Shown here: positions 1,035 through 62,843 of the stretch, in pieces
How the letters are laid out: each line of letters opens with the position of its first letter
Numbering within the stretch: position 1 is the stretch's first letter
Source of the DNA: a virus
DNA: 64,000 bases
Strand: one strand, 5' to 3'
Virus record (IMG/VR): IMGVR_UViG_3300035698_031678
Coordinates: 1 to 64,000 of that record
Notes under the pieces: model-generated
Seen by the model: only the letters and a program-made list of their open reading frames with translations
Databases searched by the model: none
Told to the model about the DNA's origin: nothing
Program-made: the position numbers and the translations under genes

Positions 1035-3092
1035 ATGAATAATCGTACTTCACTAATTGACCTCTGCTCTGATTTAAGCTTAAGCAATTACTACTTTTCA
1101 GAATGTGATGAAAGCATGAAAGCTAGATTTCAGGAAATTAATACCGATATTCATTTGACTACCAAATCAGACGAAGAAATAATGGAAAGCATTAATGCTT
1201 GGGTAGAAGATTCTAGGTCTGATGAATTAGTGCAGATAACATCTATGTCAGAAGCTTCTCTTACAATGCTAAATGAGGCTGAAGAAAGTATTTTAGCTGC
1301 TAATAATGGTGGTGAAGAAGGTGAAGAAGGTGAAGAAGGTGAAGAAGCAGCAACTGGTGGTGATGATGCAGCAAGCATAAAAGAAGAAATTACTGGTGAT
1401 ACTGCAGAAGTAGAACTAGATGAAGAAGAAAAAGAAGCAAATAAAGAGAGACAAGAAAAATTATTGTTAGCTTTAGAAAAAGTAAATAAAAATGTAGAAA
1501 AAATAGATGGTCTAGATTCTAAAGAGGAATTAAAAGACATCTATCTACAAGAGTTGGGTAAGAAATTTCTTATAGAGAAGAAATTGAGAGAAATGGGTTA
1601 CGAATTTTCTGATGTAGAAACGGATGTTTTAGATGAAATATTTGAATCTAAAAAGCTTAACCTTAACGAATCTTGGAACAAATTTTACAACAGAACAAAT
1701 CTTAACGAATCTAAAGGCTTGTTTTACAAAATGTTGAAAGATAATGTTAATAGAAATCTTAACGAATCTAAAAAAATAGAGATTACCAAAGACTCAACTG
1801 TGTTTCATTTAGAAGAGATAGAAGGTTTTTACTATATTGAGTCGGACAACCCTAAATCCATGGAATTCATAGGTCAGGGATTTGACGTTATTGACCAAAA
1901 CACAATTTCAGTACCAAAAGAAGAGCTAGGGGTTATATTAACTAGAATTAATGCGCAAACACTAGAAGACGACAAAGTAGTTTTACAATCTGGTGAAATG
2001 TACGTAATGGAGGATGAGGATGGTGATCATAATCTTGTTGATGATGAGAGTGATGCAACAGACTATCAAGATGTTTCTGAAGCAGAAAAAACCAAAACAT
2101 TGCTTTACGAGAACTATGGTTGGAATCTTAAAGTAAAAATGGGTTCTACCAACTTAAGTGAAAGCTTTTTTAAACTAAACGAAAGCTATAGGAAAAATGG
2201 TATAGTGATAGCTAGAAAAGGTTCTCTAGTTTCTATGAATGAAGGTAATTACGAGTTTAATAATACCAAAGGTAAACTACTAACTCTAAAATCAAACGAA
2301 GACTTTGCTAAAAACCTAGTTGGAATTAGCGAGAGCCAATTTTATTTCGAACTTTCAGAAAAGGCTATAGTGTCTAACCCAGAGTACCAAGGGTTAAAGC
2401 AAATCTTTGAAAACAAAGGATACCAAGTAAAGCTAAAAAGGTGGATAAGCGAAAATAGAATGCAAGAAAGCATTGTTGCTGAAGACTCTGAAGGGAAAGA
2501 AAAAATGTTAACCATACCTACTTCTAAAGAGGTTGATGACATAGATGTAGAGGAATTTGTAACTGATGAAGAGGATTTAGCCTTTGCTGTGGTAGGCAAT
2601 GAAGATAACATGAACGCTTTAAAAACTGCATCTGAAGATATAGAAGGTTTTGATTATCTTGATCATTCTGATCATTCTGATCATTCTGATGAAAATGAAT
2701 ATGAAGACAATGGTGAATACGTTCTGCAAGAAGATCTTTATATTAATGAAGATGATAAGCATAGACACGTAGAAACTCCAGATTCTATAAAAATAGCCAA
2801 AGAAAACGACATCATGACCTATGATGCAGATGAAATGTCTTTTATTAATGAAGGCGTTACAATACCTAAAGGTAACTACAAACTAAGTAAACTTACCAGA
2901 TTTCCAGTATCTAGCCTTAATCTTGATGAAAGCTATAGTATTAGAGGTGGAAAAGGTAACTACAAGTATGATGGAACTGTTCAACTTAATGAAATGGAAT
3001 ACCACTGCTTTAAATCCAGTAAAGGTGAGCAACACTTTTTGAATGAAAGTCAGGTAGAAAGCGGTATTATCAAATATGGTGTGAAACTATAG
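1035..3092 (+). CDS. Acidic multi-LNES protein, candidate proteolytically processed internal head protein
   Basis: A 685-residue, very acidic protein of no family I recognise. LNES occurs at residues 210, 223 and 242, and related L/I/M-x-E-S/A/G tetrapeptides recur to the C terminus (LNEA 79, then LSES, LNES, ISES, INEG, LDES and a final LNES). T4 gp21 prohead protease cuts after L/I-x-E, most often before A, S or G, so these are candidate processing sites; that is inference. Residues about 93-104 are an EEG tract encoded by a 9-bp tandem repeat, and HSDHSDHSD is encoded by a second one. The same motif fills the 1357-residue protein at 56316. It lies between tail gene gp15-like and the late sigma gene and has a late-promoter-like motif in front. 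A scaffold or inner-body role is likeliest. Confidence 0.75.
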   Translation: MNNRTSLIDLCSDLSLSNYYFSECDESMKARFQEINTDIHLTTKSDEEIMESINAWVEDSRSDELVQITSMSEASLTMLNEAEESILAANNGGEEGEEGEEGEEAATGGDDAASIKEEITGDTAEVELDEEEKEANKERQEKLLLALEKVNKNVEKIDGLDSKEELKDIYLQELGKKFLIEKKLREMGYEFSDVETDVLDEIFESKKLNLNESWNKFYNRTNLNESKGLFYKMLKDNVNRNLNESKKIEITKDSTVFHLEEIEGFYYIESDNPKSMEFIGQGFDVIDQNTISVPKEELGVILTRINAQTLEDDKVVLQSGEMYVMEDEDGDHNLVDDESDATDYQDVSEAEKTKTLLYENYGWNLKVKMGSTNLSESFFKLNESYRKNGIVIARKGSLVSMNEGNYEFNNTKGKLLTLKSNEDFAKNLVGISESQFYFELSEKAIVSNPEYQGLKQIFENKGYQVKLKRWISENRMQESIVAEDSEGKEKMLTIPTSKEVDDIDVEEFVTDEEDLAFAVVGNEDNMNALKTASEDIEGFDYLDHSDHSDHSDENEYEDNGEYVLQEDLYINEDDKHRHVETPDSIKIAKENDIMTYDADEMSFINEGVTIPKGNYKLSKLTRFPVSSLNLDESYSIRGGKGNYKYDGTVQLNEMEYHCFKSSKGEQHFLNESQVESGIIKYGVKL
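1311..1346 (+). repeat. In-frame 9-bp tandem repeat (GGTGAAGAA x4)
   Basis: Four consecutive copies of GGTGAAGAA encode the Gly-Glu-Glu tract of the acidic protein at 1035. The length keeps the frame, so copy-number change would only lengthen or shorten the tract. Confidence 0.9.
2661..2687 (+). repeat. In-frame 9-bp tandem repeat (GATCATTCT x3)
   Basis: Three perfect copies encode Asp-His-Ser repeats in the same acidic protein. The His/Asp spacing could bind metal, but nothing else supports that. Confidence 0.88.
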
Positions 3093-12159: not shown

Positions 12160-12405
12160 CTAATGTGTCTTAATAAGTTGGTTTCTTTTTAGCAGATTTA
12201 TAAAACCATCCAACGCTTCTTCAAAATCGTCTGCTTGAAATCCAAAAGAAGACTTTTCGTTTATTTCTATCTGCTCGTTATCTTCGTGACCAATAAGCGC
12301 AAAAAGAACCATATTATCTGTGTATTCCGTAATAGTCCTACAGAGTTTACCTCTGTAGACGAATTCTTCTCTTAGTAATCCAATTTTTTGTTCTAGTGTC
12401 ATCAT
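12160..12405 (-). CDS. Small hypothetical protein downstream of GroEL
   Basis: 81 residues, acidic, with MVLFALIGHEDNEQIEINEK in the middle and an EEALDGFINLLKRN helix at the end. Not recognised. Its ATG overlaps the GroEL stop by 4 bp, so it is translated with it. It is short and compact, as expected for a regulator or partner, but no function can be assigned. Confidence 0.6.
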   Translation of the reverse strand: MMTLEQKIGLLREEFVYRGKLCRTITEYTDNMVLFALIGHEDNEQIEINEKSSFGFQADDFEEALDGFINLLKRNQLIKTH

Positions 12406-14033
12406 AATATGCTATCTGGTATATTAACTAATCCGCAACCAATGTTAGAAAGTAATGTTAAAGTCGCAGCAGAGTTTTTAAAACAAGCTGAAGGAGATTT
12501 AGCACTTTCTAAAATACCTAAAGTGAAGGCATTACCCATTTTATGGGTCAATGTGCAATAAACAACATCTTTACCGCTGCTCTGCATTTTTAGCATTATT
12601 TCTTTAGACTCAGTTTTAGAGTAATTAGAATTTTTAAGATTTTGCATAGTTACTGCAACTAAAGAATCTAAAACAACTGAATATCCAGACCACTGTATTT
12701 CAGTTATAGTTTTATCATTCTCATGGTTGTAGATGAAGTTTTCCATAGCATCCAAGTAAATTTTACCTACTCCAGGCACTATACCATGTTTTAGTGCACT
12801 TCTACATGCTCTAAGCGCATCATCAACTCTATCGTAATCTAACCCCATCTTGTACTGACTAGTGCTATCAAAGTGTATTATAGCTATATTACCTTTTATT
12901 CTAGCTATTCTAAAATTTGTAAACTCTTTAGCAACTTCGCTGTCGGTAGATTCAGAAAGATCAACTAACTTAGCAACATGAGCATCATATGCTTCACCTT
13001 TAGAATCTTCGTCAAAATTAAATACTGTTTCCTCAATGTTTGTTAGTACGTCTTTACAAATTCCAAACAACTCTAAGGAGTCTTTGTCAGAATCTAAAAC
13101 GAATTCTTCTAACATCATATCCTTGCTGTGGTCTAAAAAGGTGCTTCCAGTAATAACAGATAAGTCCTCTAGTATAGAATCTCTTCTATCGTCATTGTTT
13201 GGAGCAATCAATGGCAAACAAGGTATGTCTGAATAGTTTTTCTTTATTGTAGTCATAGCAACTTCTGAAAAAGAGTTAGCTATTACTATTACTGATTTTT
13301 TAGCAATGTGAGCTACTTGCAATATTTCAGCCATAACTTCTACAGAATCTAAGTGCTGGTTGGTTATGAATATCAATGGTTCCTTAGCAATAAAGGAATG
13401 CCCATGATTCATGAAGCTGTGGTGCATAAGACCTGAATCTAAGATGTAACCACTAGAAATATCAGTGTAAGATTCTTTAACCTCTTTGTAGTTGATTCTC
13501 ACAACGCCAGATTCACCAATTTTATGGTAAGTCTCTCCTATAAGTTTACCGAGCTTGGGATCATTGTTAGCACTGATGGTCGCAACAGAAATTAACTCTT
13601 CCCTAGTCAGTTCGGTCTTATTATCAGCTATTTCATCTAAGTAATCCTGAACGTATGATATAGCGTAATTTATAGAATCCAAGAGTTCTCTATTGTTGTG
13701 CTCACCATTAAAATTGGGCAAAGCATAGAAGTTCTTGGCTAAAAAATAAGCCATTACTACAGTAGAAGTAGTACCATCACCTATTTGTTTTAACGTTTGG
13801 AAACTACCTTCTATAACAAGCTTAGCAGACATATCTTCTAAAAAATTTTCTAGAGAAATCTCTTTAGCTATTGATACTCCATCCTTTGTTATTCTTGGTC
13901 TACCATTTGCGTCTGGCATGATTACGTACTTACCGTTACTACCTAAAGTAACTGCAACGGCATCATAAACTTTTGTTACACCAGAGAGCATAGAGTCTCT
14001 TAGAATTTGACCTTTAATTATTTCTTTATCCAT
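12402..14033 (-). CDS. groL: GroEL-type chaperonin
   Basis: 543 residues, the usual GroEL length (548). The ATP site is conserved: LGSNGKYVIM, TKDGVSIAKEI (Asp51), GDGTTSTVV (Asp86), and VDDALRACRSALKHGIVPG near residue 400 carries the equivalent of Asp398. The apical region is divergent, and the C terminus lacks the GGM repeats. Chaperonins fold proteins inside a double heptameric ring with a GroES lid. A tandem-domain GroES gene lies 1 bp upstream, so the phage makes its own chamber, probably for capsid or tail proteins (T4 needs host GroEL plus gp31 to fold its capsid protein). Confidence 0.92.
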   Translation of the reverse strand: MDKEIIKGQILRDSMLSGVTKVYDAVAVTLGSNGKYVIMPDANGRPRITKDGVSIAKEISLENFLEDMSAKLVIEGSFQTLKQIGDGTTSTVVMAYFLAKNFYALPNFNGEHNNRELLDSINYAISYVQDYLDEIADNKTELTREELISVATISANNDPKLGKLIGETYHKIGESGVVRINYKEVKESYTDISSGYILDSGLMHHSFMNHGHSFIAKEPLIFITNQHLDSVEVMAEILQVAHIAKKSVIVIANSFSEVAMTTIKKNYSDIPCLPLIAPNNDDRRDSILEDLSVITGSTFLDHSKDMMLEEFVLDSDKDSLELFGICKDVLTNIEETVFNFDEDSKGEAYDAHVAKLVDLSESTDSEVAKEFTNFRIARIKGNIAIIHFDSTSQYKMGLDYDRVDDALRACRSALKHGIVPGVGKIYLDAMENFIYNHENDKTITEIQWSGYSVVLDSLVAVTMQNLKNSNYSKTESKEIMLKMQSSGKDVVYCTLTHKMGNAFTLGILESAKSPSACFKNSAATLTLLSNIGCGLVNIPDSIL

Positions 14034-14034
14034 A

Positions 14035-14565
14035 TTATATAAGTACTAGAACGTCTTCTTCTTGTAAGACTAAGAGTTCCTGATTATTAAATTTTACTTT
14101 AAATCCAGCAAATTTGCTGTATATTATTGTTTTTCCTTCTAACAACTTAGGGTGAGATGTGGGTGATCTATAAGTAATTGTACCTTTAGTATCTACATCT
14201 TTAGCATCAGTAGCTATTTTTACTACACCTCTAAATTTGTCTTCAACCTTTTCTGGGACAACTACTATATAATTGTTCAGTGTTATGATTGATCCTTGAT
14301 CTGTAAGTATGAAATAAATTTCTGTAGTCTCTAAGACTCTATATTCTTCACCATCATTACTGACTTCAACCCCAGCAAATTCTGGATAACAAACGTCCAT
14401 GCCCACACTAAGAACCGATACTTCATCAGAGCAAACCAAAATAGTGCCAACAGTTCTTTTCTTTATTACCTCTGTGGGTAAGAATATGTCTTTTATTCTG
14501 TCTTCTTTGGGTTTGGTCTTCACCAGAACTTTATTTCCTATAAGTGATAATTCTTTAATCAACAT
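14035..14565 (-). CDS. groS: Tandem-domain GroES-like co-chaperonin
   Basis: 176 residues made of two GroES-like folds in series. Domain 1 (about 1-88) has GNKVLVKTKPKEDRIKDIFLP, a mobile-loop-length insertion, TVGTILVCSDE and CYPEFAGVEV. Domain 2 (about 92-176) has NNYIVVVPEKVEDKFRGVV, GTITYRSP, IIYSKFAGFKVKFNNQEL and LQEEDVLVLI, the last matching the GroES end 'ESDILAIVE'. Each repeat keeps the 'YxxFAGxxV' element. Ordinary GroES has one domain of about 97 residues; double domains are known in chloroplast Cpn20. It sits directly ahead of GroEL and overlaps the clamp gene by 11 bp. The fold assignment is by eye. Confidence 0.75.
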   Translation of the reverse strand: MLIKELSLIGNKVLVKTKPKEDRIKDIFLPTEVIKKRTVGTILVCSDEVSVLSVGMDVCYPEFAGVEVSNDGEEYRVLETTEIYFILTDQGSIITLNNYIVVVPEKVEDKFRGVVKIATDAKDVDTKGTITYRSPTSHPKLLEGKTIIYSKFAGFKVKFNNQELLVLQEEDVLVLI

Positions 14566-55686: not shown

Positions 55687-55718
55687 CTTTAACCTTTTAA
55701 CCTTTTAACCTCTTAACC
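55687..55718. repeat. 8-bp tandem repeat (TTTTAACC-like x4)
   Basis: Four copies of TTTTAACC with single changes (CTTTAACC, TTTTAACC, TTTTAACC, TCTTAACC) span the stop of the gene at 55705. The repeat also encodes part of its basic C terminus (KLKRLRG), so it is partly coding. Confidence 0.8.
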
Positions 55719-56031
55719 TTTTTAATTTTCTTATTTTGTTTCTCCTGGACAAGGCGTTCATTGTAAAACTTTCAAATAAATCTACAGTAGTGTCGGACTT
55801 ACCTAACATCACCAACAGATCCATGAAATCATCTATAACATCTGTGTCTTCCATATCGACATCTTCACCCATTGGGTTAAAGTCAGGGTTTTTGGAATTG
55901 ATTTTTCCCCAACCTTTGTTAAAATCCTCAAGAATTTTATCTTTAATATCTTCTTCTTTGATTACTCTACCAGTAACGTTATTAATGGTGAATATTTCTG
56001 CAAGTTCTTTTTTAGAGTATTTTGACTTCAT
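55705..56031 (-). CDS. Small hypothetical protein with LFES motif
   Basis: 108 residues; lysine-rich start, an acidic middle (PMGEDVDMEDTDVIDDFMDL), then LFESF, which fits the L-x-E-S cleavage-like pattern, and a basic end NKIRKLKRLRG. Its gene sits 6 bp behind the next small gene in the head-type operon. Possibly an internal or prohead protein; no homolog known to me. Confidence 0.6.
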   Translation of the reverse strand: MKSKYSKKELAEIFTINNVTGRVIKEEDIKDKILEDFNKGWGKINSKNPDFNPMGEDVDMEDTDVIDDFMDLLVMLGKSDTTVDLFESFTMNALSRRNKIRKLKRLRG

Positions 56032-56315: not shown

Positions 56316-59300
56316 TTATTTTAAAAAATCATCTATAGCTGAAGTAGCATCATCTGCAGCCTTGTTTAAATTTTTGGAAATATCTTCCTCAAAACCTTTT
56401 ATCTTTTCTTTATGGGCTTTGATTTGGTTTTCTAACTTTAACTTAACATCAACGTCTTCAGTTCTAGAAATTTCTTCCTCTTTTTCTGCAATTCTATTTC
56501 TCTGCTCTTTTATTTTAGATAAGATATTTGCTTCTGATTCTTTAGACTTTTGATCTTGTAGTGATTCAAGTTCAGAATCTATTTTGTCTAGTTCAGACTG
56601 CTTAGTGTCTTTGTCCAAGTTCTGATCTCCTGAAACGGTCTTTTTGTTATCTTTTAAAGACTTTATTTTTTCATCTAGAGCGGATTCGTTCATTGCATCA
56701 GAAACATTGTGCTTAACATTCATGGTTTCTAAGACTTCTTTGATTTTATCCATATCAGAATCAGAAACATTTTTGAAGACTAATTTTTTTCTATCTCCTT
56801 CTGACTTTTCAACTTCAGTACTTAAAATACCAGTCTCTATTATGTCTCCCATAAAATTATCTGCATCAGAAGCAGAATTAAAAGTTACGGTTCTATCGCT
56901 AGAATTTGACTCATCTAAACTTTTCACCAAGTTGTATCCATTGGTTTTAATGTCTAAATCCATTTCTTCCTTAGAATCAAATCTTTCAAGATGTAAGCCA
57001 TCGTTATCAAAAAGAAAATAATCTTCACCTTCTTTTTTCATGGTAACTCTGTTATCTTCATATAGCTCTTCAGAAATTTCATGACCAAAATTAGCATTCA
57101 ACATGTCTTTGTCTTCTTCTATAACAACGTCTGTACAATTTGACTCAAACAGAACTGTTTTTATTAGTGCTATTTCTCTATCGAAGAAACTTTCGTAGAG
57201 GTTGGTAAATTGATATGAATTCTTTGACTTTCTTGTTAATTTAATGTTACTACCATTAGGGTTTCTTTTGGCAATAGCTTCATTAAGGTGTGATACCAAA
57301 GAATCATCAGAATCATATTTAAAGGCTTCTAGCTTTTCACACTCAACTAAGATACCATAGAATCTTTCAATGTTATCATAGATAAGAGGATAATTAGCAA
57401 GCTCTTCTTTGTCTATCCAAGCGTGATCTTGAACTTCATCATCAGTATATTCTGTTTCTTGAGTAGTAATTTCACCCATAAAGTAGTTAGATATACTACC
57501 TTCATCATTAGCGTATTCTCCAACTCTTACTGGATTTATAATGTCTAATCCTACTTCCTCTTTACATTCTCTAATGCAACCTTCTATAGATGTTTCGCCA
57601 GTCATTACTTTACCACCTGGAAAACCCCATTTACTAGGTTCAAAGTCAGATTCTGAAGATCTTTGCATTAACAAATATTTTCCTTGTTGATCTCTGACAA
57701 TCATATCAGCGTAAATTTGCATTGGAGAATCTATACCCATTTCTAATGCTGCTTCACTAAGGTCTTTAGCGTGTTTTTTAGCATAGTTTAGCCCTTCTTT
57801 TATACCAACATTTTCTTTTATAACCTGACCTATTTTACCACCTTCATAAGGGTGTAAGTCAAATTTACTAGAAGACTGGCTTCTGATTTTAAAGTAGAAC
57901 TCTCTACCAGATTCGTCTTTGATAGTTACATCTTTACCTGAATCACCTTGGGTATTAGATGTTTGGGTAAACTTAGATTCGTTTAAGTTACCTTTTACTA
58001 TTTTGCTAAGCTCCTCTTCATCTAACCAAATGTTTATTGGTCTACCTTCATTCATTTTAAAAACACAACTTACGTCTCCGATTTTACCGACTCTAACTAC
58101 TTCGTTATTACCGATTTTTTGTGGTGGAGTTTTGAAACTTGTTATGTTGAAGTTGAAGTGTTTGTTTATTTCTTCTACAGTTTCTAACTTGGATTCAGAA
58201 TCGTCTAAGGCAAAAATGCAAATAGGGTCTACTATCTCAAGTGTATTAATAACAAAGTCTATAAATTCTTCTTGATTTTCTTTAATCAGAGCATACTCTT
58301 CTAAAGTGTGATAAGAAACTATTGTGCCATTGTATATCTTAGTGAAGCTTTCATCAATGTCAGAAAGGTCACTTTTAACCTTAAATAAGTAGTCAGTCAT
58401 ATAAACACTACCACTTTTAGTAGTTACAAGGTTTTCATCAACAGATTTAACTGTAAACAATGTATTTGGATGATCTGAATGACCGACCAGGTCACCAGCT
58501 CTTATTTTGCTTTTAGTACCAACCATTTTTGAATTGACATCAAGATTTAAAGGTGGATTTACTGGGTCAATATTCCATTCTTTAAAGCTTTTTGATTCTG
58601 ACATGTTCAATGTGTTAGCCAGAGTTAGGTCAAATTTCAGAACGCCATCTTTTAAAGAAAAAACGTAATATCCCTTAACTAACAGGTTTAATTTTTTAGC
58701 CCAGACTTTAATTTCATTCTTTATCTCCTTACCCAATTTAGTAGAAAAGAATCTTTCACCATAGGGAGTGTTGTAATTTTCAGATTTTTTAATATCAATA
58801 TCAAAACGATATACTAAATTAACCTTAGAACTATCGTTAACAAGTTCGCCATTTACATTACCAGTCTCTGAGGTGTTACCAATTTTATCTTTTAAACCAT
58901 TAATATTTGATTTAACCAAGTCTTGAGCCTTAGTAAGGTTTTTAGAAATTATTTTTTCAACATCTTTAATTTGATCTTCTATTACTTTTTTAAAAGAGTT
59001 TTTATGTCCATCAAATCCAACAGATTTCTTACCATACCAATCATCCATACTTTCAGGCAAGTTTTTCTGGTAATTTAAAAAAGGGACTCTGAAAGTTTCT
59101 AGAATTTCATTAATCCCTAAACCATTTGATAAATGTTCAACATACAAAGATTTTAAAGTAGATTTTGAGTTAAGAGTAGAATTTGAAAACACACTACTAA
59201 AGAATTCTTCATGGTTATTTTTAGAATTTCTAGATTCTAGTAACTCACCATATCCAACTGCATTACCTCTGTTTGCCATAGCTCCAGCAGCTGCTCCATC

Positions 59301-60389
59301 AGTTTCGTCTAAACGATCATATTCATCATTGAAGTTTAAGCCATACTTTTTGTAAAATAGATCGTATGACTCTTCATTTCTTTCTTCCTGACCATCAAAT
59401 TCATCAGGATCTACCCCATCTAATAAAGGTAAGTATGCATCTTCTAGGTCTGAAATACTGTTAAAAGTCTTTTTAGACTCGAAAAGGTTGGTAATTCTGT
59501 TTTCTTTTAGCTCACCAAGTATAAGAACGGTTTTTTTAGAAGATCTTGATTCTGATAACCTTTGAGCAGCGAAAACGTTTCTGTTTATTAGTTTATTTTT
59601 TAAAATTTTAACAGCAGATTCATTTAAATTAAGAAGATTGTCTTCATATTTGTCTAGTATGGCAGCTTTGATTTCTTCTTCTGAACCTGAATCGTCAAGA
59701 CCCATTTCAGCAGCCATAACTTCAATTTCAAACAGGTTTAAAGACTCTAAGTGTCTTTTAAGGCTATCAGGATCTTTGAACTTTGATTCATTTAAACCTA
59801 GAAATTCTTTTCCTTTTTTAGATATGGCATATTGCTCTATACCCATCACTGTATTGTTCATGATAAAGTCTTTACTTTGGGCTTTGTCAATCAGTTCTTT
59901 TGGAAATTCTCTATTAATTTTAGACTGGAATATTCTATCATCAACATTATCTGGTGTGATTGCGTGGAGAAGTTTAATAAGGTCTTTGTCCGAATCAGCA
60001 GATTCATTTAAGTCCATAAATTCTTTCCCCATCATGGATATAGCATATTGTTCTATGCCCATCACTTTATTGTTCATGATAAAGTCTCTACTTTGGGCTT
60101 TATCTATAAGTTCTTTTGGAAATTCTATGTCAATTTTAGATTTAAATATTCTATCATCAACATCATTTGGAGTAATTGCGTGAAGAAGTTTGATCATGTT
60201 TTTGTCTGAATCATTCGATTCGTTTAAACCGCCTACGCCTTTTATACCTTTTTCTTTTAAAAAGAATTTAATCTCTTCTTCAGCATCTTCTTTAGACATT
60301 ATAGAAATTTCATCTTGTATCAACATCCATTCATCAAATAATCGAGGATAATTGTTAGCTATGTCTAAGTTTATGAGTTCTATATTCAT
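56316..60389 (-). CDS. Large multi-LNES protein with embedded Nudix hydrolase domain
   Basis: 1357 residues. LNES-type tetrapeptides occur at about 55, 127, 199, 255, 802, with LSES 278, LFES 302 and 1080, LLES 383, LPES 444, IDES 678, LSEA 877, LNEA 1035, LYES 1064 and LDES 1158. All fit the T4 prohead-protease rule (L/I-x-E then S/A/G). Two 72-residue tandem copies make up 55-198, and a SAP-like helix pair lies near 203-250. Residues about 887-1015 are a Nudix domain with box Gly926-Leu948 (GKVMTGETSIEGCIRECKEE). LSEA and LNEA sites flank it exactly. The C terminus (1240-1357) is coiled coil. Likely a head-packaged protein cut into pieces. Confidence 0.8.
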   Translation of the reverse strand: MNIELINLDIANNYPRLFDEWMLIQDEISIMSKEDAEEEIKFFLKEKGIKGVGGLNESNDSDKNMIKLLHAITPNDVDDRIFKSKIDIEFPKELIDKAQSRDFIMNNKVMGIEQYAISMMGKEFMDLNESADSDKDLIKLLHAITPDNVDDRIFQSKINREFPKELIDKAQSKDFIMNNTVMGIEQYAISKKGKEFLGLNESKFKDPDSLKRHLESLNLFEIEVMAAEMGLDDSGSEEEIKAAILDKYEDNLLNLNESAVKILKNKLINRNVFAAQRLSESRSSKKTVLILGELKENRITNLFESKKTFNSISDLEDAYLPLLDGVDPDEFDGQEERNEESYDLFYKKYGLNFNDEYDRLDETDGAAAGAMANRGNAVGYGELLESRNSKNNHEEFFSSVFSNSTLNSKSTLKSLYVEHLSNGLGINEILETFRVPFLNYQKNLPESMDDWYGKKSVGFDGHKNSFKKVIEDQIKDVEKIISKNLTKAQDLVKSNINGLKDKIGNTSETGNVNGELVNDSSKVNLVYRFDIDIKKSENYNTPYGERFFSTKLGKEIKNEIKVWAKKLNLLVKGYYVFSLKDGVLKFDLTLANTLNMSESKSFKEWNIDPVNPPLNLDVNSKMVGTKSKIRAGDLVGHSDHPNTLFTVKSVDENLVTTKSGSVYMTDYLFKVKSDLSDIDESFTKIYNGTIVSYHTLEEYALIKENQEEFIDFVINTLEIVDPICIFALDDSESKLETVEEINKHFNFNITSFKTPPQKIGNNEVVRVGKIGDVSCVFKMNEGRPINIWLDEEELSKIVKGNLNESKFTQTSNTQGDSGKDVTIKDESGREFYFKIRSQSSSKFDLHPYEGGKIGQVIKENVGIKEGLNYAKKHAKDLSEAALEMGIDSPMQIYADMIVRDQQGKYLLMQRSSESDFEPSKWGFPGGKVMTGETSIEGCIRECKEEVGLDIINPVRVGEYANDEGSISNYFMGEITTQETEYTDDEVQDHAWIDKEELANYPLIYDNIERFYGILVECEKLEAFKYDSDDSLVSHLNEAIAKRNPNGSNIKLTRKSKNSYQFTNLYESFFDREIALIKTVLFESNCTDVVIEEDKDMLNANFGHEISEELYEDNRVTMKKEGEDYFLFDNDGLHLERFDSKEEMDLDIKTNGYNLVKSLDESNSSDRTVTFNSASDADNFMGDIIETGILSTEVEKSEGDRKKLVFKNVSDSDMDKIKEVLETMNVKHNVSDAMNESALDEKIKSLKDNKKTVSGDQNLDKDTKQSELDKIDSELESLQDQKSKESEANILSKIKEQRNRIAEKEEEISRTEDVDVKLKLENQIKAHKEKIKGFEEDISKNLNKAADDATSAIDDFLK
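57345..57731 (-). other. Nudix hydrolase domain inside the multi-LNES protein
   Basis: Residues about 887-1015. The box G-x5-E-x7-R-E-x2-E-E-x-G-L is complete (Gly926, Glu932, Arg940, Glu941, Glu944, Glu945, Gly947). It begins MQIYADMIVRDQQGKYLLMQ, the typical first strands, with PSKWGFPGG before the box. Substrates of such enzymes are nucleoside diphosphates linked to another group, including damaged dNTPs; not predictable here. Confidence 0.85.
59796..60227 (-). repeat. 72-residue tandem duplication (2 x 216 bp)
   Basis: Residues 55-126 and 127-198 are near-identical (LNES...DSDK, LLHAITP, FPKELIDKAQS, GIEQYAIS) and each starts with LNES; a third LNES begins the next segment at 199. The unit is 216 bp, and the two copies differ at scattered positions. 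Confidence 0.92.
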
Positions 60390-60390
60390 C

Positions 60391-61137
60391 TTAAAGGTTA
60401 ATTTTTGTAAATTTGTTATTACCAGATCTAAAGATAAGTGTTTTACCTTCGTTTACTTTAATGGATTGTTTAGATTGCAAAACTTTCATTTTAGCAACGC
60501 TAATGCTTTCTAATAATGCTGACATGTTAACTGGGTCTCTCCTTATACTGCTCATTAGAACTCTACCCATCATACTCTTCTCTCCATTTTTAACAGCATC
60601 CTGGTAAATGGTTTCTCTCATAGTGTAATCGTAAGAGCTTGGATAATGTCCAGTAGATAAACCGTATAGTGCTAGTATACTATTCTCATCCATCTGATTA
60701 AAAACAGCATCTTTTATTTCTGAATTCTCTACTATGCCTTCGTTTAGTTGCATTTGAACCTCTCTCTGGTAAACAGGATAGTGCATCAAGCATTGAGTTG
60801 CTCTAGTTGTTACAACCAAATTCCAGGTTTCGCAATTTTCTGGGTCGAAGTTTGGACAAAGCATGTCCACAGAGTTGTGGAAATGAACTAGTGTGTCGTT
60901 TATTGCCCCTAATAATTTGTCTGACATAAGATCTATCTCAAAACTAGCGTAGTTGGATATAAACTTTAATACAGAATCTACACTTGCAAATTTAGAATTT
61001 ATCAAGTGTCCTAAATTAGCATAACATTCTTCTGTTATCTTATCAGTTTTTTCGTAAACTCTTAAGGATTTAGGATCAAGATTTAATAAAAATATTTCCT
61101 CACCAAAAGAATTAATAATAGAGGTAACATCTACCAT
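60391..61137 (-). CDS. Hypothetical head-operon protein
   Basis: 248 residues, helical and acidic, with LLNLDPKSLRV and later QLNEGIVENS, ALLESISVAKM and KVNEGKTLIF, so a few cleavage-like sites. Its stop is one base before the ATG of the large LNES protein, and a promoter-like AATAAATA lies 16 nt before its start. Role in head assembly is inferred. Confidence 0.6.
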   Translation of the reverse strand: MVDVTSIINSFGEEIFLLNLDPKSLRVYEKTDKITEECYANLGHLINSKFASVDSVLKFISNYASFEIDLMSDKLLGAINDTLVHFHNSVDMLCPNFDPENCETWNLVVTTRATQCLMHYPVYQREVQMQLNEGIVENSEIKDAVFNQMDENSILALYGLSTGHYPSSYDYTMRETIYQDAVKNGEKSMMGRVLMSSIRRDPVNMSALLESISVAKMKVLQSKQSIKVNEGKTLIFRSGNNKFTKINL

Positions 61138-61171: not shown

Positions 61172-62173
61172 TTATGACCTAGCATCTTTTTCCATTTCCA
61201 CCCTTCGTTCTTCTATATCCTCTCTAGTTAAGTCCTGGTTATCTTCTTTGTCCGAAGTGATGTTCTTAAGGTCGTTAAGTAGGGCAGTTCTATCTCTAGT
61301 CTTAAAAGTTTCTCCAACCATTTCATAATCAGCATTTTCTGGAAGTTCTTCTGATTTTTTAAGCATGATATTTATTTCATGTTGGTCTTTCACTTTGCTT
61401 AGGTCTTCTATAACATCTTTTAAGGTAGTAGAAATAAAGCTGTTTATTTCTAAAACTAATTTTTGTTGCTGAGTAAAGCTTTCGTAAGTAGTTTTAGTAC
61501 CTATTCCACTCATTATTTCGGTAAAATATTTCATTATAACTTGCTTGGTAAGGTTTAACTGAACAAACATTAATGATAAAGACTCTGCAGATATTTGTAT
61601 TCTTTGTTTTACGTAAGAATTTTCTGCTATTATTTCTTTAGTTAGGTAGTGGTCAGAAACAGAAACTAATAACATCCTAGCTTTAATGGTAGCTGTTTCA
61701 TACCTGTCAGAAAAGTAATCTTCCCAAGTTTCTAGTAACTCATCTATATCTGTTTCAGGCATATCGTCATCCCCATTGCCATCAAAGCCAGAACTTTTAG
61801 AAGAACCCAGACTAGCAAATGCTTCAGTCTCGGTTAGTTTCTTCTTAAGTTTTTTATTAGTTACTTCTCCACTATTGTGAGAACTTATAATGTCGTCTAT
61901 GTCTGAATTAGTACCATAGTACTTAGGAACAAGATCGTTTTTGTCTACTATCATAACTTTATAGAACTTTATTCTATTAACGTTTTGTTTCTTAAATTTC
62001 TTTGCAGACTCTATGCTAGGAAACTCTAAGACATACTTCATCATAGTACCGTTCTTAGGCTTCATACTTATTTTGTGGTATTCACTCTTAGGTAGTTTGT
62101 ATGGGTCAGATACGTTATAGTCTTCACCACTAATTACCAATTCTTCTCTATCACCTTCTATTTTTAAGTTCAT
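61172..62173 (-). CDS. Hypothetical head-operon protein
   Basis: 333 residues. The N-terminal 110 residues are mixed alpha/beta; residues about 105-150 are acidic and Gly/Ser-rich; the rest is helical (LLETWEDYFSDRYETATI, QQKLVLEINSFISTTLKD). No motif recognised. It begins one base from the stop of the gene before it. Could be a portal-associated or scaffold-like protein. Confidence 0.58.
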   Translation of the reverse strand: MNLKIEGDREELVISGEDYNVSDPYKLPKSEYHKISMKPKNGTMMKYVLEFPSIESAKKFKKQNVNRIKFYKVMIVDKNDLVPKYYGTNSDIDDIISSHNSGEVTNKKLKKKLTETEAFASLGSSKSSGFDGNGDDDMPETDIDELLETWEDYFSDRYETATIKARMLLVSVSDHYLTKEIIAENSYVKQRIQISAESLSLMFVQLNLTKQVIMKYFTEIMSGIGTKTTYESFTQQQKLVLEINSFISTTLKDVIEDLSKVKDQHEINIMLKKSEELPENADYEMVGETFKTRDRTALLNDLKNITSDKEDNQDLTREDIEERRVEMEKDARS

Positions 62174-62174
62174 T

Positions 62175-62843
62175 TTAGTTGGGGTTTTGTTTTATAAAAG
62201 CGCTGTGGGGTATATATTCCAAGATTCTTCTTATGTTTTTATCACTACCACCTGTATATCCTTCTCTCCAGTAGCTAATTTTTCTGTTTATCGTGGTAAG
62301 ATTAAGAATTCTATCAACTCTCATCATTCTCCAATAAGGCAAGTTTTCTGATTCTGATTCCGAATTAGCTCTTTTAAATCTAACACTCTTGTCTTTAACA
62401 GAATCTCTTATTACAAAACACCTTAGGTAAACATCTGATGAATGTTCTTTAGAAACAACACCATCAACCATATATCCTTTGCCCACCACATAAGGTTCTA
62501 CTAATCTAAATCCTTCAAATCCATCTTCATTTTGATAATACAAGCCTAAGTAAAATCTCTTCTTTATAGCAATCTTAATCTTTCTAAGGTGTAAATCTTC
62601 ACGTTCTGGTTTGTTTTTCACATACATAATACTTCTAGCAGACTCGCTTAAAGAAGTTATCTTTTTAAACTCGTTATCAAAGTGTATCTCTCTGAAATTA
62701 GTTTTTACTTGTTCGAATTCTCTTTTAGATATCTTATACCCGATTATTTTTTCTAGTTCAACCCAGGTTAACTTATCAAAGTCATCAAGTTGTTCTAAAA
62801 ATTTTTCAGGAATAGACTCTATAATCTTATTTGCATTGTTCAT
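62175..62843 (-). CDS. WYL-like domain protein
   Basis: 222 residues. Residues about 85-185 (LRKIKIAIKKRFYLGLYYQN, GFEGFRLVEPYVVGKGYMVD, DVYLRCFVIRD, YWRMMRVDRILNLTT) follow the WYL pattern of an I-x-Y strand, R-x-V-E-P, then an R-x-F-R-x-D-R-I-like end. WYL domains bind ligands or nucleic acids in bacterial regulators and defence proteins. Here it heads the leftward head operon, behind a 363-bp non-coding region. An LSES site is at about residue 68. Moderate confidence. Confidence 0.55.
   Translation of the reverse strand: MNNANKIIESIPEKFLEQLDDFDKLTWVELEKIIGYKISKREFEQVKTNFREIHFDNEFKKITSLSESARSIMYVKNKPEREDLHLRKIKIAIKKRFYLGLYYQNEDGFEGFRLVEPYVVGKGYMVDGVVSKEHSSDVYLRCFVIRDSVKDKSVRFKRANSESESENLPYWRMMRVDRILNLTTINRKISYWREGYTGGSDKNIRRILEYIPHSAFIKQNPN

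Follow-up and report, generated by a model that had tools for sequence, protein, structure and literature searches.

T4 Alt is an ejected ADP-ribosyltransferase that is processed at both ends by gp21 (PMC5694885), and the T4 internal proteins IPI-III bear capsid targeting sequences (PMC9026906). Nudix fusions to phage head proteins have also been reported; the domains are joined to MuF, portal or capsid-processing peptidase proteins, were for the most part placed in the NudE or NadM clade, and have been proposed to be packaged and injected (PMC9503650). Phages and conjugative elements also encode polyvalent proteins, which are large and multidomain, occur in virion contexts, and are thought to enter the host (PMC5512222). 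The SPN3US report describes a prohead protease, gp245, that cuts portal, capsid and internal proteins with long propeptides several times after x-x-E (PMC10052503).

Here we describe a large predicted polyprotein with an embedded Nudix domain, encoded in a window of 64,000 nucleotides (the whole stretch of DNA analysed; positions 1 to 64,000 of IMG/VR record IMGVR_UViG_3300035698_031678) that probably derives from a T4-type myovirus with a Flavobacterium-like host. It resembles Alt as a putative head enzyme flanked by L/I-x-E sites for an S77 prohead protease, predicted here from sequence; Alt, however, is an ADP-ribosyltransferase that sheds one short and one 63-residue propeptide, whereas the present chain is predicted to yield about 20 segments, the Nudix module being one of them. 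The likeness to IPI-III lies in short site-ending N-terminal leaders on the Nudix polyproteins of three relatives (MaF61, L018 and L193), but these polyproteins are long multi-module chains, and the window polyprotein has no leader, its first site being at residue 57. The fusions of PMC9503650 similarly join Nudix to head proteins, but do so directly, whereas here the domain lies between prohead-protease sites of a separate polyprotein and its nearest solved relatives are of the MutT/NudI type. Polyvalent proteins are likewise large, multidomain and found in virion contexts, but have many recognisable effector domains; Pfam recognises Nudix alone in the window polyprotein, not several effector or defence domains, and its modules are separated by protease sites. 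The SPN3US substrates, including portal and capsid, are also multiply cut, but at an A-x-E motif and by a protease encoded separately from them, and the accessible part of that report does not describe an enzyme module between sites. We found no description in the literature of a multi-site, module-swapping polyprotein format.

The Nudix polyprotein and its predicted cut sites

The ORF at 56316..60389 (minus strand) encodes 1,357 residues (154.6 kDa). The original prediction of about 18 L/I/M-x-E-S/A/T sites was right about the array and low in its count, as that same rule, [LIM]-x-E|[SAT], gives 20 sites against 4.4 expected from composition shuffles. With [SAG] after the cut there are 19 sites against 4.7 expected, and none of 1,000 shuffles reaches 19; the predicted cuts under this rule follow residues 57, 129, 201, 257, 280, 304, 385, 446, 598, 680, 781, 804, 865, 879, 1037, 1066, 1082, 1160 and 1235. 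A 72-residue module is duplicated in tandem (residues 58-129 and 130-201; 59787..60218, minus strand; 83% DNA identity), and on either side the homology stops at a predicted cut site. The C-terminal segment (residues 1236-1357; 56319..56684, minus strand) is predicted to form long, scaffold-like helices in a low-confidence model, with pLDDT about 70-84 over most of the segment; the AlphaFold run, on residues 599-1357 with two sequences, had a pLDDT of 41.5 and is used solely for this helical C terminus. Ten other segments of the polyprotein gave no convincing Pfam match.

The Nudix domain spans residues 887-1017 by homology to MaF61 (57339..57731, minus strand), with a Pfam match at 893-999 (E 3e-16, above cut-off), in agreement with the original placement of the fold at 887-1015 between an LSE|A site (877-880) and an LNE|A site (1035-1038). 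Both sites are present at those positions, and cleavage at them would release residues 880-1037 (57279..57752, minus strand), a fragment of 158 residues, 18.0 kDa and pI 4.15 with the N terminus AALEMGID. No [LIM]xE[SAT] site falls within the window's Nudix domain; for this polyprotein alone the bracketing has P 0.011. The Nudix box (residues 926-948, GKVMTGETSIEGCIRECKEEVGL) is intact with respect to the consensus GX5EX7REUXEEXGU, save that Cys942 stands at an aliphatic position, U. A model of the fragment has a mean pLDDT of 85.4 with loose ends at both cuts, and the predicted fold occupies the space between them. Foldseek searches with this model return Nudix enzymes as best matches (E 1e-12), the closest folds being of the MutT/NudI type; a dNTP or damaged nucleotide as substrate would fit these folds, which do not themselves give the substrate. 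The genome also encodes a ribonucleotide reductase and a guanylate kinase.

Cognate protease, related phages and modular exchange

A candidate protease is present on the same record, as had been sought by the original prediction. A 1,964-residue protein starts with a T4 gp21-type (S77) prohead protease domain (Pfam Peptidase_S77, 29.3 bits with a cut-off of 27; phrog_207, E 2e-25) in which the candidate catalytic residues His98 and Ser155 are invariant. Sites of the same kind are dense in this protease-scaffold polyprotein and in the portal, and the major capsid protein also has them in its N-terminal region. A second site-rich polyprotein of 685 residues (1035..3092, plus strand), homologous to MaF61 ORF76, has 15 sites against 3.1 expected. 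The tetrapeptide LNES is largely confined to four proteins (the Nudix polyprotein, the portal, the 685-residue polyprotein and the protease-led protein), which together total 4,631 residues and contain 21 of the 22 copies in the genome, with one in the other 36,824 residues. These 21 copies have 15 codon spellings and use all six Leu codons, and the motif is therefore maintained at the protein level. A possible paralogy between a segment of the protease polyprotein and the Nudix polyprotein (E 0.007) was too weak to be claimed.

Syntenic, site-rich Nudix polyproteins are found in three relatives, the cultured Flavobacterium phage MaF61 and records L018 and L193. In all three, sites closely flank the Nudix; P ranges from about 3e-5 to 7e-4 according to the site rule applied, and the four relatives are not independent. 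All four phages, including that of the window, retain an intact Nudix box, and this argues for catalysis. Between phages the residue at P2 varies, as do the other modules, while L-x-E-S/A is kept. There are motif matches within the Nudix fold of L018 (IREA) and of L193 (IFES, LEEG and LPEG), and the motif alone thus does not define a cut. Taken with the S77 protease and the sites shared by scaffold, portal and capsid, the site-flanked Nudix of four phages gives good support to the original description of a head-type polyprotein.

Several neighbouring genes are also conserved, and there are departures in which modules appear in different contexts. One example is a 108-residue ORF (55705..56031, minus strand) with LFE|S near its C terminus, homologues of which lie inside the MaF61 Nudix polyprotein and inside a 359-residue protein of record G001; by sequence comparison this module is one that moves between a separate gene and a polyprotein. 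A second example is the 248-residue neighbour (60391..61137, minus strand), which is in the same place in MaF61 (ORF124) and L193; a 46-column profile match to the L018 polyprotein (hhalign probability 78%) and a separate BLAST match at 20% (E 0.001) are no more than suggestive of its fusion into the N terminus of that protein. The gene adjoining the L018 polyprotein encodes a capsid N-arm-like stretch (E 6e-11). Farther along are conserved neighbours of 333 residues (61172..62173, minus strand; MaF61 ORF125, 32% identity; 312 residues in G001) and 222 residues (62175..62843, minus strand; MaF61 ORF126, 41% identity).

A scan of viral contigs found no relatives of the full polyprotein or of the capsid protein, and the corresponding protease scan gave four loci, of which only the L018 record is of the same kind. 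Scanning genome contigs with the Nudix alignment yielded nothing beyond weak relatives; these appear to be ordinary MutT-type genes and served solely as an outgroup. A similar Nudix is absent from several related contigs of other phages carrying an S77 protease, but many of these are fragments and the absence carries little weight. In other phages, members of this Nudix lineage occur as fusions to unrelated head proteases of the ClpP and XkdF types. The head-fused set clusters in a Nudix tree, but its loci were picked by motifs drawn mostly from head-fused members, with NudE left out, and the clustering is partly ascertainment.

Proposed delivery and alternative explanations

With a probability of roughly two in three, we interpret the ORF as a prohead cargo or core polyprotein that is cut by the phage's own protease and frees an ejected, T4 Alt-like Nudix enzyme. 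The sequences themselves show the site array and its selection at the protein level, a cognate protease, conservation of the flanking sites and modular exchange; prohead entry, cleavage, retention, ejection and substrate are what we infer. The Nudix polyprotein would enter the growing prohead, where the S77 protease, as the N-terminal domain of the 1,964-residue scaffold polyprotein, would cut it after L-x-E|S/A into about 20 segments; by this cleavage rule an 18-kDa folded Nudix hydrolase (880-1037) should be among them. Most linker and core peptides would probably leave the head or remain as internal peptides, while the folded enzyme would stay and then be ejected with the DNA, by analogy with T4 Alt. 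Since the other segments have no recognised fold, its retention among expelled peptides is our assumption. Early in the infection the ejected enzyme may act as a hydrolase on a nucleotide-type substrate, for which the candidates are a defence signal derived from nucleotides and an NTP that is damaged or unwanted. We found no virion proteomics, and the text of the MaF61 paper does not include 'mass spectrometry', 'prohead' or 'virion protein'.

Cleavage could also occur without delivery, if the polyprotein is a scaffold or core protein whose Nudix either acts in assembly (e.g. by clearing prohead nucleotides, or by serving as a structural domain of the core) or leaves along with the core peptides before packaging. 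The sites common to the Nudix and protease-scaffold polyproteins are consistent with this, as is the helical, scaffold-like C terminus of the low-confidence model, and in SPN3US long propeptides are cut several times and mostly exit the head. However, the intact Nudix box, as a sign of catalysis, and the placing of the same lineage on unrelated head carriers count against this, and we regard cleavage without delivery as unlikely. That the protein is made late and is not a prohead substrate, with the motifs as inter-module spacers and the Nudix as a cytoplasmic nucleotide-pool enzyme, is improbable: the ribonucleotide reductase and guanylate kinase genes and the MutT/NudI folds would suit such an enzyme, but four phages retain the Nudix in a site-rich polyprotein with the same partner genes, and the supposed spacer fits a phage-encoded protease and recurs in the portal and capsid N terminus. 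Finally, the chains do contain real tandem duplications, and DNA repeats or composition might by themselves have produced the array. Shuffles yield 4-5 sites against the 19-20 found, P2 varies between phages while L-x-E-S/A is retained, and the diverse codon spellings of LNES largely refute a DNA-repeat origin, so this explanation is very improbable indeed.

Extending the delivery reading, we suggest tentatively that a group of Bacteroidota myoviruses builds a giant protease and core chain together with other chains of exchangeable, site-separated cargo modules, such that several enzymes or host-takeover proteins (cargos would include the Nudix and the MA9V-2 DUF5856 domain) are freed together for delivery with the DNA. 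For the general proposal of head-borne, injected phage Nudix enzymes, the window polyprotein offers a single case that can be tested directly, since its cut sites and fragment masses are predicted and one relative, MaF61, is in culture. Confirmed cleavage would make this a tailed phage delivering an enzyme through a polyprotein strategy, and site-bracketed folded modules would provide a sequence rule for recognising head-delivered proteins in metagenomic phages.

Predicted cleavage sites and the Nudix fragment

The window covers the opening 64 kb of a virus record that is 129,295 bases long, and its Nudix polyprotein (1,357 aa; 56316-60389, - strand) contains 20 matches to the rule [LIM]xE/[SAT] (a slash marks the predicted cut), compared with 4.4 expected from composition shuffles. 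The site array of the original prediction is thus upheld, although its count of about 18 by the same rule is not. With [SAG] after the cut there are 19 sites against 4.7 expected, a number reached in 0 of 1,000 shuffles. Predicted cuts after E879 and E1037 enclose 158 residues, the length originally proposed, and the Nudix fold falls between them as anticipated, with limits of 893-999 (Pfam, E 3e-16) or 887-1017 (homology); taken for this polyprotein by itself, such bracketing carries P 0.011. The Nudix box (926-948; GKVMTGETSIEGCIRECKEEVGL) has a Cys at one aliphatic position and is otherwise intact. An AlphaFold model of the fragment with six relatives has a mean pLDDT of 85.4, falling below 50 at residues 1-7 and 151-158, and these loose ends suggest that the predicted fold spans the stretch from one predicted cut to the other. 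The closest matches to the fragment are MutT-type proteins and NudI, with 3grn the top match in both Foldseek and HMMER.

A scan of the whole record (about 144 non-overlapping ORFs) shows strong site enrichment in the Nudix polyprotein, a 685-aa protein (window 1035-3092, + strand; 15 sites vs 3.1) and a 1,964-aa protein (P0001; L005:903-6797, - strand, corresponding to 114903-120797 of the record and outside the window). The 685-aa protein is a homologue of ORF76 of Flavobacterium phage MaF61, and no known domain was found in it. Enrichment is weaker in the portal (7 vs 1.6, [SAT] rule) and borderline in a 312-aa ORF outside the window (128000-128938 of the record, + strand; 4 vs 0.6), for which no relatives were found among phage records. 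Of the 22 LNES tetrapeptides, 21 are in the three strongly enriched proteins and the portal (4,631 aa) and one lies in the remaining 36,824 aa, within the 312-aa ORF. The 21 sites have 15 codon spellings, in which each of the six Leu codons and both families of Ser codons appear, and codon choice roughly matches the usage of the genes concerned. This variety excludes a DNA repeat as the chief origin of LNES and points to selection at the peptide level.

The protease and its polyprotein

A search for the prohead protease had been proposed as a check on the original prediction, and one is found as the N terminus of the 1,964-aa protein (phrog_207, head maturation protease, E 2e-25; Pfam Peptidase_S77, the T4 gp21 family, score over cut-off). 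His98 and Ser155 do not vary among four homologues and, from general knowledge of this protease class, are presumably catalytic. An LNE/S site (cut after 229) is directly behind the protease domain, and beyond it the protein is a string of modules divided by the same sites, including a recent tandem duplication (98% DNA identity). The gene is located upstream of the major capsid gene, whose product has the N terminus ...KIFE/SW...LCE/AA...MYE/N; that of MaF61 is ...KIYE/AW...LCE/AS...IYE/S. By sequence, the Nudix polyprotein carries a dense, selected array of predicted sites, and the phage itself encodes a protease of known type to which they correspond.

Phage Nudix domains fused to MuF, portal or head peptidase proteins have been described and are probably packaged and injected (PMC9503650). 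A limited search of the open literature yielded no account of prohead polyproteins that combine multiple sites with an enzyme module, and none of an S77 protease at the head of chains as long as 1,964 aa. The protease polyprotein of Chryseobacterium phage MA9V-2 (L177:7869-11492; 1,207 aa) has 15 sites, mostly INE/S. Predicted cuts at 406 and 577 enclose its DUF5856/phrog_858 domain (473-572; called starvation-inducible regulator in PHROG), which is a second candidate cargo. Stop codons interrupt otherwise conserved S77 frames in Prevotella phage Lak-B5 (L179:7998-9029) and L275 (record G006), which suggests stop-codon recoding. GroEL-like and GroES-like chaperonin genes are present in the window (12402-14033 and 14035-14565, - strand), and MaF61 likewise has two annotated chaperonin genes.

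Relatives, modules and leaders

MaF61, a myovirus whose capsid measures about 110 nm (PMC13269007) and whose genome is 167,814 bp long, has the same gene order as the record, with a 924-aa Nudix polyprotein (13-14 sites vs 2.5-3.2) and a 1,404-aa protease-scaffold polyprotein (22 vs 4.8-5.9). The corresponding proteins of L018 (record G001, a 110 kb IMG/VR contig) are 1,064 aa (16 vs 3.7) and 1,395 aa (16 vs 5.7), and a 28-kb contig, L193 (record G005), encodes a 733-aa Nudix polyprotein (18 vs 3.2). Outside the Nudix these chains are scarcely alignable, and the usual P2 residue is N in the window and T in L018, with flanking sites still in place. Pooling the four phages, there are few matches inside the Nudix and flanking sites are near (P ~3e-5 for [SAG], 5e-5 for [SA] and 7e-4 for [S], assuming uniform random placement; as the four are homologous and non-independent, the values are indicative). 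Within the fold, L018 has the motif match IREA in its Nudix box, and L193 has three (IFES, LEEG and LPEG), which means that accessibility must count too. By sequence, an enzyme module that is intact and folded is placed between predicted sites, in a conserved arrangement.

The window polyprotein contains a 72-aa module twice (58-129 and 130-201), with homology stopping at sites on both sides. The adjoining 108-aa ORF (55705-56031) has its homologue within the polyprotein chain in MaF61 and within a 359-aa protein (L018:6833-7912, + strand) that adjoins the Nudix polyprotein of L018. This 359-aa protein has a stretch with cut sites that resembles the capsid N-terminal arm (E 6e-11; 34.5 bits, where the top score among 500 shuffles is 3.5), and the likeness is the most direct link of the gene cluster to the prohead shell, albeit in a relative's neighbour gene and not in the window. 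Leaders resembling capsid targeting sequences (short N-terminal segments with a site at their end) are present on the Nudix polyproteins of MaF61, L018 and L193, on capsid proteins and on two L193 neighbours (one less clear); none was found at the N terminus of the window polyprotein.

Nudix fusions occur with ClpP-type head proteases (phage contigs L013-L016, L020, L021, L023 and L024), with XkdF-type head maturation proteases (phage contigs L012 and L026) and in long multidomain proteins (L017, L025, L029 and L030). A tree of 41 Nudix domains clusters those of the window, MaF61 and L018 polyproteins (L193 was found later) with seven ClpP-type fusions and one XkdF-type fusion (97/96 support) and makes the MaF61 domain sister to an XkdF fusion (99/98). 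The clustering is partly ascertainment, because loci were collected with a Nudix alignment and motifs mostly from head-fused members. Even so, the exchange of a single Nudix lineage between unrelated head carriers supports a head role. Chryseobacterium phage MA9V-3 has a separate 235-aa Nudix gene (L007:5001-5708) immediately before a head maturation protease gene.

Proposed fate of the Nudix fragment

We propose that the Nudix polyprotein would enter the prohead and be cleaved there by the S77 domain, with the Nudix fragment being retained and later ejected. We place the probability of cleavage in the prohead at roughly 0.85. An intact Nudix fragment is likely to be set free, and its ejection, argued by analogy, is slightly favored. 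The precedent is T4, where gp21 cuts Alt at both ends before it is ejected (PMC5694885, PMC9026906) and a 10-residue leader is enough to carry foreign proteins into the head (PMC9026906); in SPN3US, long propeptides receive several cuts (PMC10052503). NAD/ADPr-type signals have been proposed as substrates of head-borne Nudix domains (PMC9503650), and the MutT/NudI-type folds matched by the modeled fragment suggest that its substrate may be (d)NTP-like.
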